Source of the DNA: Pseudomonadota bacterium
GTDB taxonomy: Bacteria > Desulfobacterota > Desulfovibrionia > Desulfovibrionales > Desulfovibrionaceae
NCBI GenBank assembly: GCA_018817515.1
Contig: JAHIUD010000049.1
Location: forward strand, 1 to 40,169
Reading direction: 5' to 3'
Length of the DNA: 40,169 nucleotides
Part shown: piece by piece, positions 31,591-36,079 of the stretch
Position numbering within the stretch: the stretch's first letter is position 1
Layout of the letters: the number at the start of each line of letters is the position of its first letter
Translations under genes and position numbers: made by a program
Notes under the pieces: model-generated
What the model saw: the letters and a program-made list of their open reading frames with translations, nothing else
Told to the model about the DNA's origin: nothing
Database searches by the model: none

Positions 31591-32070
31591 TTATTTCCGG
31601 TAGTCCGACAACTGTCGCGCGGTGTCCCGCGCCATGTCCCGGGCCTTGATGTCGTCGCGGCGGTCGTGCACGTTCTTGCCCTTGCCCAGCGCTATTTGCA
31701 GCTTCACGCGGCCGTTCTTGAAGTAAAGCTTGACCGGGATGACGGTGAGGCCCTTTTGCGAGGCCAGGGCCTGCAGCTTGTCGATCTCGCGGCCGTGCAG
31801 CAAGAGCTTGCGCTCGCGGGTGGGTTCGTGCGGGTCCATGCCCGCGTTGGCATAGGGCGCGATGTGCACGCCGGTGAGCCAGGCCTCGTCATTTGTGAAG
31901 CGCACGTAGCCGTCCATGAAGTTCACGCGGCCCTCGCGCAGGCTTTTCAGCTCCGAGCCCATGAGCACGAGGCCTGCCTCGAAGACCTCCAGGAATTCAT
32001 AGAGCCTGCGCGCCTGCTTGTTGGTGGCGATGAGCTTCTCGCCCGCGTGGCGATTGGGATTTTCGGTCAT
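31591..32070 (-). CDS. smpB: SsrA-binding protein SmpB
   Basis: 159 residues, normal length. It binds tmRNA and carries it to stalled ribosomes. [10 protein letters not shown] at the N-terminus, the [15 protein letters not shown] segment, and the C-terminal [18 protein letters not shown] tail, which reaches the decoding centre, are all present. ATG 32070 is 3 nt after the ptsI stop, so it is translationally coupled. No tmRNA gene is in the window. Confidence 0.97.
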
Positions 32071-32073
32071 GGG

Positions 32074-33858
32074 CTAGCCCCCGAGATCGTCGTTGTCCAG
32101 GAGCGAGGCAAAGAATGTGAGCTCTTCCGGGTATTTGTTGAAGATGGTGTCGCGCACCAGACGGTTGATCTTGCCCACGGTGCGGCAGGCCAGAACCTCG
32201 CGCAACAGCGCCTTGCACTCGCTCATGCGGGCCTGGCGGATGATGCGCTTGATGCCGGGAATGGCCTGGGGCGACAGGCTGATGCAGTCGATCTGCATGC
32301 CCATGAGGATGGGCACGCAAAACGGGTCGCTGGCCACCTCGCCGCACAGACTGGCCTCGATGCCGGCCTGGTGCGCGGCGTCGACCACGTGCTTGATGCT
32401 GCGCAAAATGGCCGGGTGCAGCGGCTGGTACAGGTAGCTCACGTGCGGGTTGGTGCGGTCGATGCCCACGCTGTACTGGATAAGGTCGTTGGTGCCGATG
32501 CTGAAGAAGTCGACCTCTTCGGCCAAAAGATTGGCGATCATCACCGCCGCAGGCAGCTCGATCATGATGCCGATGGGCATGTCCTGGTTGAAGCGCTTGC
32601 CCTCGGTGCGCAATTCCTCCTGGGCCTCGCGCAGCTTGGCCTTGGCCCGGCGCACCTCGCGCAGGCCGGAGATCATGGGGAACATGATGCTCACATTGCC
32701 GTAGGCGCTGGCCCGGGCGATGGCTTTCAACTGGGTTTTGAACAATTCCGGGTGCTGCATGCAGAAGCGGATGGCCCGCAGGCCCATGGCCGGGTTGGCC
32801 TCTTCCAGCGCGCCGAAGCTGGCGATGGTCTTGTCCGCGCCGAGGTCCAGCGTGCGGAAGATGACCTTGCGCGGGCTCATGATGGCCGCGAGGTCGGAAT
32901 ACTTGTCGGCCAGCTCGTCTTCCCCGGGCAGGTCGATGCGGTTTAAGTAGCTGTATTCCGTGCGGTACAGGCCGATGCCCTCGCCGCCGTTGTCCAGCAC
33001 CGCGGCCACTTCCTCGATGAGCTCGATGTTGGCCAGGACCTGCACGCGGTAGCCGTCGATGGTCTCCGCCGGGAGCTGGCAGCCCCGGTAGATGCGGCGC
33101 TGGTAGTCCTCGAACTGTGCGCCGAGCTCGTTGAATTCGGCCAGCTCGTCCTCGTCGGGGTCCACCAGGATGCGGCCGCCCACGCCGTCCATGATGACCA
33201 GGTCGCCATCGTTGACCGCGTCTTCCAGGTCGGCCACGCCCACCAGGGCCGGGATGCCCAGCGTGCGGGCCATGATGCCCGTGTGCGAGGTCTTGCCGCC
33301 CTGGGCCGTGGCAAAGCCCATGATCTTGGAGACTTCCAGCGCAACCGTGTCCGCCGGGGTCAGGTCGTGGGCCATGATGATGACCCGGCCCTCCACGGCC
33401 AGAAGCTCGGGCACGGTGCCCAAAAGCCGCGACATGACGCGGTCGCTCATGACGCGCACGTCTTGCAGGCGCTCGCGGATGTAGAGATCGTCGAGCACGC
33501 CGAAGGCCTTCTCCAGCTCGGCCACGGCCTTTTCCAGCGCCCACTCGGCGTTGACGCCCAGTTCGCGGATCAGTTTGGCTGCGGCCCCGGCCAGCTTGGG
33601 GTCTTTTAAAATCATCAGGTGCGAGTCGAGGATGTGCTTGTGTTCCTTGAGCTCGGCCGGGATGCGGTCGCGGGCGGTGGCGAGTTCGGCCTCCACGCTG
33701 GCGAAGGCCTCGCGCAGGCGCGATTCCTCCTCGGCCACCAGGGCGGGCGGAATGGTCTGGCGCGGCAGCTCGGAGCGGTGCCTGCGGTTGACGAACACGG
33801 CCTTGCCGATGGCGAAGCCCGTGGACACCGATATGCCGCGAACGATGACTCTGGCCAC
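32074..33858 (-). CDS. ptsI: PTS enzyme I (phosphoenolpyruvate-protein phosphotransferase)
   Basis: 594 residues. It takes phosphate from phosphoenolpyruvate and gives it to HPr. The phosphorylated histidine is H192 in GGKTSHTGIMAR; the PEP-binding C-domain shows NEEANPAMGLRAIR-like EEANPAMGLRAIR and the catalytic SLCGEVASDP. Start GTG 33858 overlaps the ptsH stop by one base (TAGTG) with GGGGAG five bases upstream. N-terminus MARVIVRGISVSTG is typical. Confidence 0.97.
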   Translation of the reverse strand: MARVIVRGISVSTGFAIGKAVFVNRRHRSELPRQTIPPALVAEEESRLREAFASVEAELATARDRIPAELKEHKHILDSHLMILKDPKLAGAAAKLIRELGVNAEWALEKAVAELEKAFGVLDDLYIRERLQDVRVMSDRVMSRLLGTVPELLAVEGRVIIMAHDLTPADTVALEVSKIMGFATAQGGKTSHTGIMARTLGIPALVGVADLEDAVNDGDLVIMDGVGGRILVDPDEDELAEFNELGAQFEDYQRRIYRGCQLPAETIDGYRVQVLANIELIEEVAAVLDNGGEGIGLYRTEYSYLNRIDLPGEDELADKYSDLAAIMSPRKVIFRTLDLGADKTIASFGALEEANPAMGLRAIRFCMQHPELFKTQLKAIARASAYGNVSIMFPMISGLREVRRAKAKLREAQEELRTEGKRFNQDMPIGIMIELPAAVMIANLLAEEVDFFSIGTNDLIQYSVGIDRTNPHVSYLYQPLHPAILRSIKHVVDAAHQAGIEASLCGEVASDPFCVPILMGMQIDCISLSPQAIPGIKRIIRQARMSECKALLREVLACRTVGKINRLVRDTIFNKYPEELTFFASLLDNDDLGG

Positions 33859-34172
33859 TATTTCTCCCCGAACTTGGCGGCGAAAAGCTCCGTCAGGCGG
33901 TCCACGGCCTGGGGCGCGTCCGCGCCGCAGGCGCGGATCTCAAGGGTGCTGCCCATGCCCGCCGAGAGCGTCAGGATGTCCAGGATGCTTTTGGCGTCCA
34001 CGGTTTGTCCCTGGGCCTCGATGCTGATCTTGGCGACAAAGGCCTGGGCCTCGCGGGCGATCTGGCTGGCCGGGCGTGCGTGCAGGCCGAGCTGGTTGGT
34101 CACCAGCACCTGCCGCACGCTCTGCTCTCCGGCAGAGGCGTCTGAATCCATGTTTGCGCTCGTATCAGACAT
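33858..34172 (-). CDS. ptsH: PTS phosphocarrier protein HPr
   Basis: 104 residues from ATG 34172, with about 16 residues more than E. coli HPr at the N-terminus. Phosphocarrier H31 lies in GLHARPAS; a serine at the regulatory Ser46 position (S62, DAKSILDIL) is present. It relays phosphate from EI to IIA proteins. The ribosome site is weak (GGTTGGACA). A second ATG at 34151 would remove most of the extension. It ends in the one-base TAGTG overlap with ptsI. Confidence 0.93.
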   Translation of the reverse strand: MSDTSANMDSDASAGEQSVRQVLVTNQLGLHARPASQIAREAQAFVAKISIEAQGQTVDAKSILDILTLSAGMGSTLEIRACGADAPQAVDRLTELFAAKFGEK

Positions 34173-34185
34173 TGTCCAACCGTAC

Positions 34186-34998
34186 TTATTGCCCCAGGGG
34201 CGACCAGGGGAGGCCCAGGGGAACGCCGCTGGCGGCGTGTTGCATGAGCCAGGGGATGGCGCACAGCGCCCACAAAACAATCCCGGCGATGATCCACCTG
34301 GGCAGGATGGGACGCAGGGTCAAAACTCCGGCCAGGCCCAGCGCGCCTATGCCCCAGGCCCAGGAGACGAAGTCCTTGGCGGGGAAGAGCTGCGTCCACA
34401 AAACCAGGAGCAGAGCCGCGTTGATGAACTTGATGCGCCTGCCCCAGTTGATGAGATCCCAGTTTCTGAGGGCCCCGAGGAAGCTGAAGCCTCTGCGCAG
34501 GCCCCCAAGAAAAGTGTACACACGAAAGACCTGCAATCCAAGAAAAAAGAAAATGCCCATTCCGAGCGGCAGGGCGCGGTGCCCGGCCAGCAAAAGGCTG
34601 GCGCTGGAAAGCGCCCAGAAGATGAGCAGGCTGCCCGCGAACACGGAGTCGCCGATGGCGGACAAAGTGTAGCTGGTGGTGTTCTTGACCTTTTCCAGTG
34701 CGTCGGGCGGCAGCCTGCGGCCCGCGATGTCCGCCTCCACGGCCAGGAAGATGCCCACCAGGCAGGGCACCCAGAAGGGATGCGAGCTGAAGTGCCGGGC
34801 GTAGCGCTTGAGCGCCTGCTCCCGTGCCTTTGTCTCCTTGTGGATGACCCACAGCCCCGGCTGCATGGCGTAGAGGATGCCCACGCTCATGAGCCCGCGC
34901 GGGTTCATGGACGCGCCCACCAGATACGTGCGCAGAAAGCAGCGCAGGTAGGCCTTGCCGCGCTCGGTCCAGAAGCCGGCCACCTCGGCGGCGGCCAT
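34186..34998 (-). CDS. PTS mannose-family IID membrane subunit
   Basis: 270 residues, full family length. The family segments TYLVGASMNPRGLMSVGILY and FSSHPFWVPCLVGIFLAVE lie in the first half; hydrophobic segments follow in the second. IID pairs with IIC to form the membrane channel of mannose/fructose/sorbose-type PTS systems. ATG 34998 comes 1 nt after the bioB stop, so translation is coupled. No IIA, IIB or IIC gene is in the window; immediately upstream is bioB. It lies 13 nt ahead of ptsH. Confidence 0.93.
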   Translation of the reverse strand: MAAAEVAGFWTERGKAYLRCFLRTYLVGASMNPRGLMSVGILYAMQPGLWVIHKETKAREQALKRYARHFSSHPFWVPCLVGIFLAVEADIAGRRLPPDALEKVKNTTSYTLSAIGDSVFAGSLLIFWALSSASLLLAGHRALPLGMGIFFFLGLQVFRVYTFLGGLRRGFSFLGALRNWDLINWGRRIKFINAALLLVLWTQLFPAKDFVSWAWGIGALGLAGVLTLRPILPRWIIAGIVLWALCAIPWLMQHAASGVPLGLPWSPLGQ

Positions 34999-34999
34999 G

Positions 35000-36079
35000 T
35001 CAGCGGACCTTTCCAGGTGAGCCGCCGGGTCCCGTGGCGGCTCCCGTGCCCGTGGCGGTGGTGAGGCCGGTCATGGAATGAAAGCCCAGCTCGCGCGCCA
35101 GGGCCAGGTCGGCCTCGGCCGGGGAGCCCGCGATGGTCAGGTAGTCGCCGATCATCAGCCCGCTGGCGCCGGAATTGAGCAGCTCGCGCTGGCCCGCGCC
35201 GCCCGGCTCGCCGAACACCGCGCCGCGCCCGCCGCACACGCGCAGGTTGGCGTGGGGCAGCATGAGCCGGAGCAGCGCCAGGATGCCCAACGCCTCCGGT
35301 CGGGGGAGCACCGGCCGGTGCTCCAGGCGCGTGCCCGCGATGGGCACCAGGAAATTCACCGGCACGTTCTTGACGCCCAGGTCAAGGAGCGTTTGGCCCA
35401 GCTCCGCGCGCTGTTCCCAGCTCTCGCCCAGGCCGAAGATGCCGCCGCAGCATACGAAGAGTCCGGCGGCCAGGGCCTGGCGCACGACCTCCACATCGTC
35501 CTCGTAGGCGTGGGTGGTGCAGATCTGCGGGAAGAAGCTTCTGGCCGTCTCCAGGTTGTGGTGCACGCCCGAGAGGCCCGCCTGCGTCAGCCGCGCAAGG
35601 CGCTCCGGGGACAGCAGGCCCACGGACGCGTCGGCCTTGAGCCCGGTCTCGCGCACCAGGCGCACGGCGTCGAGCAGGCGCTTGAAGTCGCTCTCGCTCA
35701 AGGCCAGGCCGCTGGCCACGATGCCGAAGCGCGTGGCCCCGGCTGTGCGCGCGGCAACGGCGGCGCGGGCGATCTTCTTGGGGTCCAGGAAGCCGTGGCG
35801 CGGGCTGGCGGTCTTGTGGCGGCTGGACTGGGCGCAGAAGGCGCAGTCCTCGGAGCAGTTGCCGCTCTTGGCGTTGACGATGGCGCAGAGGTGCAGGTTG
35901 TTGTCGAAATTTCTGCGGCGCACGGAGCGGGCCCCGGCCAGCAGGCGCTCAAAGCCAGCGCCCTCGCCGGAGGCTGCGGCAGAGAGCACGGCTGTCAGCG
36001 CCGCCCCGTCCAGGGGGCGGTCGTCCAGGGCCAGGACGATAGCCCGGTCCAGTTCAGCCGTTGTGCCCGAGCCGCTCAT
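35000..36079 (-). CDS. bioB: Biotin synthase with an atypical auxiliary-cluster ligand set
   Basis: 359 residues. The radical-SAM cluster is bound by C75, C79 and C82 (CSEDCAFC). BioB inserts sulfur into dethiobiotin. By eye-alignment to E. coli BioB, two of the three [2Fe-2S] cysteines are missing: C97 is G119 and C128 is D150, while C188 (C210, VCCGG) and R260 (R285, CGGRG) are kept. Extra cysteines are at C65 (HLCAIVN), C187 (QICTTH), C211 and C282. A variant class with a different auxiliary cluster has been reported in anaerobes, and this protein fits that. ATG 36079 with AAGGA upstream lies inside rsmI (26-nt overlap); the 3' end is 1 nt from the IID gene. Confidence 0.92.
   Translation of the reverse strand: MSGSGTTAELDRAIVLALDDRPLDGAALTAVLSAAASGEGAGFERLLAGARSVRRRNFDNNLHLCAIVNAKSGNCSEDCAFCAQSSRHKTASPRHGFLDPKKIARAAVAARTAGATRFGIVASGLALSESDFKRLLDAVRLVRETGLKADASVGLLSPERLARLTQAGLSGVHHNLETARSFFPQICTTHAYEDDVEVVRQALAAGLFVCCGGIFGLGESWEQRAELGQTLLDLGVKNVPVNFLVPIAGTRLEHRPVLPRPEALGILALLRLMLPHANLRVCGGRGAVFGEPGGAGQRELLNSGASGLMIGDYLTIAGSPAEADLALARELGFHSMTGLTTATGTGAATGPGGSPGKVR

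Follow-up and report, generated by a model that had tools for sequence, protein, structure and literature searches.

The window analysed here, a stretch of 40,169 nucleotides, carries bioB on the minus strand at 35000..36079, an open reading frame assigned to a type II biotin synthase of 359 amino acids from PDB, NCBIfam and Pfam matches; all coordinates below are those of the window, and all codons lie on the same strand. The product (P0001) scores 322 bits against the NCBIfam model TIGR00433 bioB, whose cut-off is 225, which places it in the BioB family, and it contains the Pfam domains Radical_SAM and BATS. Just 5′ of the ATG, an AAGGA resembling a Shine-Dalgarno sequence can be seen by eye. 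The gene shares 26 nt with the end of rsmI; on its other side, after a gap of 1 nt, comes a PTS EIID-like gene, followed by the genes for HPr, PtsI and SmpB. The ORF list of the window holds no small gene between bioB and either neighbour. The EIID-like, HPr and PtsI frames directly 3′ of bioB, and smpB after them, fall at 31591..34998 on the minus strand. The EIID-like protein scores well under the NCBIfam cut-offs and over those of Pfam.

The genome containing the window (3.6 Mb in 114 contigs) yields four matches to the bioB profile, one of them over the cut-off, namely the window BioB. Its bioA and bioD, both over their cut-offs, stand together on another contig and are adjoined by a BioC-like gene that falls below its family cut-off; the dethiobiotin pathway is thus at least partly present. 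Among the matches listed, the named relatives closest to the window bioB include Desulfovibrionales bacterium GWA2_65_9 and Humidesulfovibrio. Each of the 14 same-genus genomes searched (G001–G014) contains a bioB with glycine at position 119 and aspartate at position 150, and these two residues are therefore not a sequencing accident.

According to passages of PMC11099021, Cys97, Cys128, Cys188 and Arg260 ligate the [2Fe-2S] cluster in the E. coli enzyme, and its surroundings include Ser43, Ser218, Arg95 and Tyr149. These positions were related to the window BioB, whose numbering is used throughout, in a MAFFT alignment with E. coli K-12 BioB (b0775) among its rows. The radical-SAM CxxxCxxC motif is intact, with C75, C79 and C82 (35834..35857) at E. 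coli C53, C57 and C60; C210 (35450..35452) corresponds to C188, and R280 (35240..35242) to R260. The original prediction that these features are kept while two classical ligands are replaced is borne out, since G119 (35723..35725) stands at C97 and D150 (35630..35632) at C128, and no cysteine aligns with either E. coli position. The type I set of Cys97, Cys128, Cys188 and Arg260 is represented here by G119, D150, C210 and R280. Four cysteines described as foreign to the E. coli enzyme, C65 (35885..35887), C187 (35519..35521), C211 (35447..35449) and C282 (35234..35236), do align with other residues, S43, I165, S189 and S262; together with C210 and the motif cysteines they make up the eight cysteines of the protein. 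R117 (35729..35731) corresponds to R95. The location of Ser43 and Arg95 around the E. coli cluster (PMC11099021) supports the placement of C65 and position 117 at the pocket.

A phmmer search of the PDB returned three matches at E ≤ 1e-30: 8vcw (4.6e-64), 8vdw (1.8e-62) and E. coli BioB, 1r30 (8.6e-42). Structure-search labels identify 8vcw as B. obeum BioB and 8vdw as V. parvula BioB, both released in January 2024; we take them to be the type II structures of Lachowicz et al. 2024 (JACS). The window BioB is 40.5% identical to 8vdw, 36.6% to 8vcw and 28.7% to the E. coli protein. An AlphaFold2 model built from 48 sequences (pLDDT 92.8, pTM 0.89) gave Z scores of 46.6 against 8vdw, 46.5 against 8vcw and 41.1 against 1r30, and a Foldseek structure search with the window BioB likewise ranked 8vcw and 8vdw ahead of 1r30. 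In a tree of 154 rows, built with the key columns removed, a branch 1.33–1.39 long with SH-aLRT support of 100 separates 151 rows, P0001, 8vcw and 8vdw among them, from the other three, namely E. coli BioB, L034 and L100.

According to passages of PMC11099021, which cites Lachowicz et al. 2024 (JACS), most anaerobic bacteria have BioBs that employ a [4Fe-5S] cluster and are termed type II. PMC11138216, which cites the same work, attributes to the BioBs of obligate anaerobes a [4Fe-5S] cluster that has a ligated sulfide; PMC11089781 cites it too, and its relevant passages only name type II BioB. By sequence, predicted fold and phylogeny, the window protein falls together with the enzymes of B. 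obeum and V. parvula, in agreement with the suggestions that it belongs to this class and that its auxiliary cluster site differs from that of E. coli. It also has the combination of C65, C187 and C210 with no cysteine at the C97 position, a set derived in the present analysis. The sequence identifies the window BioB as a type II biotin synthase of the anaerobe kind, a vitamin-producing enzyme whose sulfur derives from an iron-sulfur cluster. It belongs to a sulfate-reducer branch that has aspartate in place of a fourth cysteine near this cluster. The class itself is already known, having been published in 2024.

Residue frequencies were counted over 307 type II rows, a biased sample drawn from the window's phylum and the best 80 of 586 listed stretches, in which the Bacillota are apparently represented by just the two solved structures. 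By hand tally, and in overlapping sets, the bioB-matched genomes read were 36 of 36, 108 of 139 and 124 of 131. The 31 left out of the second set comprise 30 of genus g22 and G155; those left out of the third are G041–G044, G247, G269 and G293, together with the second matches in G187 and G311, which are broken. From 223 loci with a matching ORF, eight rows classed as partial by a threshold on where the match ends (L088, L120, L122, L131, L137, L154, L187, L195) and eight duplicates (L115, L116, L117, L132, L153, L171, L186, L236) were dropped, and L196 gave no match. All the partial rows except L195 (seven of eight, outside the 307) have C65, C150, C187 and C210 and no C117. One of them, L137, comes from a contig titled Burkholderiales; its BioB is 52% identical to the window's and ranked among the Desulfovibrio matches, possibly reflecting a mislabelled or mixed bin. 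A fresh set of 100 aligned matches was added. L238 and L280 were first set aside from it; L280 was later counted as type II, and L238, on account of its 75.8% identity to L100, was assigned to type I. Both L100 and L238 are type I-like, with cysteines at the 97 and 128 positions, and carry in addition the type II cysteine at 65. A search for viral relatives gave 26 stretches that matched the pattern, of which two code for a short fragment of one, and nothing useful.

The three CxxxCxxC cysteines are present in 307 of 307 type II rows at each position, as is C210; C65 is cysteine in 306 and C187 in 292, and the three residues C65, C187 and C210 occur together in 291. Their near-invariance suggests that all three are likely ligands of the auxiliary cluster, conservation being the sole evidence for C187. 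The C97 position is occupied by glycine in 153 rows, serine in 130, cysteine in 15 and alanine in 9. Within this alignment, then, type II enzymes normally have no counterpart of C97, and of the two losses it is that of the C128 counterpart alone that sets the window BioB apart from 8vcw and 8vdw. The proposal that the extra cysteines form an alternative cluster site is supported for C65 and C187 but not for C211 and C282. C211 is cysteine in 97 of 307 rows, C282 is common but not invariant (Cys in 237, Ala in 63), and the two solved structures have serine and alanine there. Both were rejected as cluster ligands because they vary in the clade and because four rows (L027, L033, L190, L239) combine D150 with just three cysteines among positions 65, 117, 119, 187, 210, 211 and 282. 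A role for R280 as a retained ligand was also rejected, arginine being present in 163 of 307 rows and many other residues in the remainder.

Among the 15 rows that lack C187, cysteine is found at 150 in 13 and at 119 in one; the putative third ligand is thus not invariable. At least three cysteines among positions 65, 117, 119, 150, 187 and 210 are present in 306 of 307 rows. The sole exception, L290, has D150 and two of the six (C65 and C210), and its genome is 66% complete. L280 has lysine at 65 and four pocket cysteines, at 119, 150, 187 and 210. Both may be further variants or assembly problems. From these patterns, three cysteines seem to be required at the auxiliary site, of which two hardly vary, and a fourth is common and may be moved or be replaced by an aspartate accompanied by a base; this suggests that three cysteines suffice and that the fourth can be exchanged.

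The 13 type II rows without C187 that have cysteines at 65, 150 and 210 are L099, L104, L147, L157, L160, L259, L264, L269, L281, L288, L298, L299 and L306, three of them titled Nitrospina. Eight further BioBs (L121, L142, L146, L170, L173, L183, L185, L194), six of them titled Nitrospirae or Nitrospirota, have cysteines at 65, 119, 150, 187 and 210 and thus combine the type I and type II cysteines. Of eight genomes examined for bioD, the window's among them and the majority with variant pockets, six had a match over its cut-off; G066, the source of the Asp150 row L064, gave weak matches only, and G165, the source of L290, gave none.

Position 150 is cysteine in 203 rows, aspartate in 70, serine in 28, alanine in 5 and glycine in 1, so that the C128 equivalent is lost in 104 of 307 rows, among them the window BioB; a fourth pocket cysteine at 150 does not define the class. 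Its state goes with those of positions 117 and 280. Arginine or lysine is found at 280 in 70 of 70 D150 rows versus 116 of 237 others, and C117 in 33 of 33 rows with serine or alanine at 150 versus 0 of 274 others. Predictions of this coupling were written after the first 208 rows and before the 100 fresh matches were read. The fresh rows followed them: R/K280 accompanied D150 in 3 of 3 and C117 accompanied S/A150 in 6 of 6, with C117 in 0 of 89 fresh Cys150 rows and likewise absent from L280; of the 98 rows counted at that stage, 97 had at least three pocket cysteines, L290 being the exception. R117 accompanied D150 in 67 of 67 rows of the first set and in two of three of the fresh set. The S/A150 rows with C117 (for example L080, L082, L086, L094, L127 and L144, and the fresh L243, L249, L250, L312, L315 and L318) come in many cases from Geobacter or Desulfuromonas relatives. 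They look as though strand 3 had given up the fourth pocket cysteine and strand 2 had gained it.

In the 154-row tree, 39 of 41 Asp150 rows fall in one clade of 40 (SH-aLRT 99 in one tree run and 86 in another), the fortieth member, L074, having glycine; the remaining two Asp150 rows, L089 and L190, lie outside it. On a larger tree the state of position 150 changes between aspartate and other residues at least four times, with gains and losses not told apart, and Cys117 needs at least five changes. In a phylogeny-aware comparison, four of four independent pairs on supported branches linked S/A150 with C117 in the same direction, too few for significance (sign test, p = 0.125); the smaller tree gave two pairs (p = 0.5). 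The combination of D150 with R/K280 has arisen independently few times: its pairs, four on all branches and two on supported ones, were mostly uninformative and the sign test was not significant, one of the tests having been made against R280 alone; the association of D150 with R/K280 therefore rests on plain counts.

These observations are probably best explained if the window BioB is a type II enzyme with a three-cysteine, [4Fe-5S]-type auxiliary cluster and an aspartate at 150 that probably pairs with R280. The cluster bound by C75, C79 and C82 would cleave S-adenosylmethionine, and the resulting radical would activate dethiobiotin. The sulfur would then come from the auxiliary cluster, with C65, C187 and C210 as its ligands inside the barrel. 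Its fourth iron would carry an extra sulfide, as in the [4Fe-5S] state described in BioBs of anaerobes; such a state would call for three cysteines and an iron left open. Asp150, at the fourth pocket position on strand 3, would probably make an ion pair with Arg280 next to this open iron.

A different role for the aspartate is conceivable. In a further kind of BioB, Asp150 would itself be the fourth ligand of a three-cysteine, one-aspartate [4Fe-4S] cluster, and a bridging sulfide would be sacrificed, with no free-sulfide [4Fe-5S] state. The residue does stand where E. coli BioB has a ligand (PMC11099021), it hardly varies within the clade of the window BioB (39 of 40 rows), and it recurs outside that clade in L089 and L190, with the changes at 150 already noted. 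We nevertheless judge this unlikely. The serine, alanine or glycine found at 150 in other type II rows (28, 5 and 1) implies that the class has no need of a ligand there, and the arginine or lysine at 280 in every Asp150 row suggests that the carboxylate pairs with a basic residue instead of binding iron.

It is very improbable that the protein is not a biotin synthase at all, as a paralogue without a sulfur-donor cluster or a dead enzyme. Such a reading would account for the missing two of the three classical cysteine ligands, but this is the sole match over the bioB cut-off (one of four) in a genome that also has bioA and bioD, bioB is present in all 14 genus relatives searched, and C65, C187 and C210 are retained together almost throughout the type II rows. 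Most improbable is a type I-like enzyme minus two ligands that depends on an accessory protein, as mycobacterial BioB depends on BsaP: the latter also lacks the C128 equivalent (alanine there), but passages of PMC11099021 give its set as Glu43, Glu218, Glu95 and Arg149 where the window BioB has C65, N238, R117 and G171, the tree places the window BioB with type II, and bioB is packed between rsmI and the EIID-like gene.

The type II reading, with D150 probably paired with R280, is thus preferred, and it allows a wider proposal. A literature search found neither a D150/R280 form nor a switch of the cysteine from 150 to 117; its wording covered the pocket residues barely and position 117 not, and the 2024 primary paper may treat such variation. 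The fourth pocket position might be an evolutionary switch, occupied by Cys150, by the alternative Cys117 of strand 2 with serine or alanine at 150, or by an Asp150–Arg280 pair that dispenses with a fourth cysteine. The pair would take over the role of that cysteine, for example in holding or protonating the sulfide, and would mark a distinct type II subtype. We put this forward tentatively, with the balance of probability somewhat against it.

How biotin synthase supplies sulfur is the subject of a long-standing argument. Natural variants that drop or move pocket cysteines suggest that the type II cluster needs those at 65 and 210 and nearly always that at 187, and that the cysteine at 150 is dispensable. 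If the fifth sulfide is bound to an iron that no protein residue ligates, a type II enzyme of the D150 lineage, with just its three pocket cysteines, should still carry the [4Fe-5S] state.

Among known systems, the window BioB most resembles the two enzymes taken here as type II. V. parvula BioB (8vdw) shares its fold (rmsd 2.0 over 328 residues) together with the equivalents of C65, C187, C210, R117 and R280 and the absence of cysteine at the C97 position; it differs in having Cys150, Ser119, Ser211 and Ala282 in place of aspartate, glycine, cysteine and cysteine. B. obeum BioB (8vcw; rmsd 1.5 over 323 residues) has the equivalents of the same five residues and differs at the same four positions. 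The type I enzyme of E. coli (1r30) belongs to the same family and shares the CxxxCxxC motif and the equivalents of C210 and R280, but the window BioB lacks its C97 and C128 and has the additional pocket cysteines C65 and C187. The thiouracil desulfidase TudS is unrelated to BioB in fold and reaction and is not a radical-SAM enzyme. As a [4Fe-5S] enzyme it offers a mechanistic analogue only: passages of PMC8584467 describe a [4Fe-4S] cluster held by three cysteines, whose fourth iron binds a sulfur atom. The BsaP-dependent BioB of mycobacteria, as described in passages of PMC11099021, is like the window enzyme in having no cysteine at the C128 position, which is D150 here; in place of the Glu43, Glu218, Glu95 and Arg149 of that actinobacterial type, the window BioB has C65, N238, R117 and G171, and it also carries C187, like C65 a potential cluster ligand.
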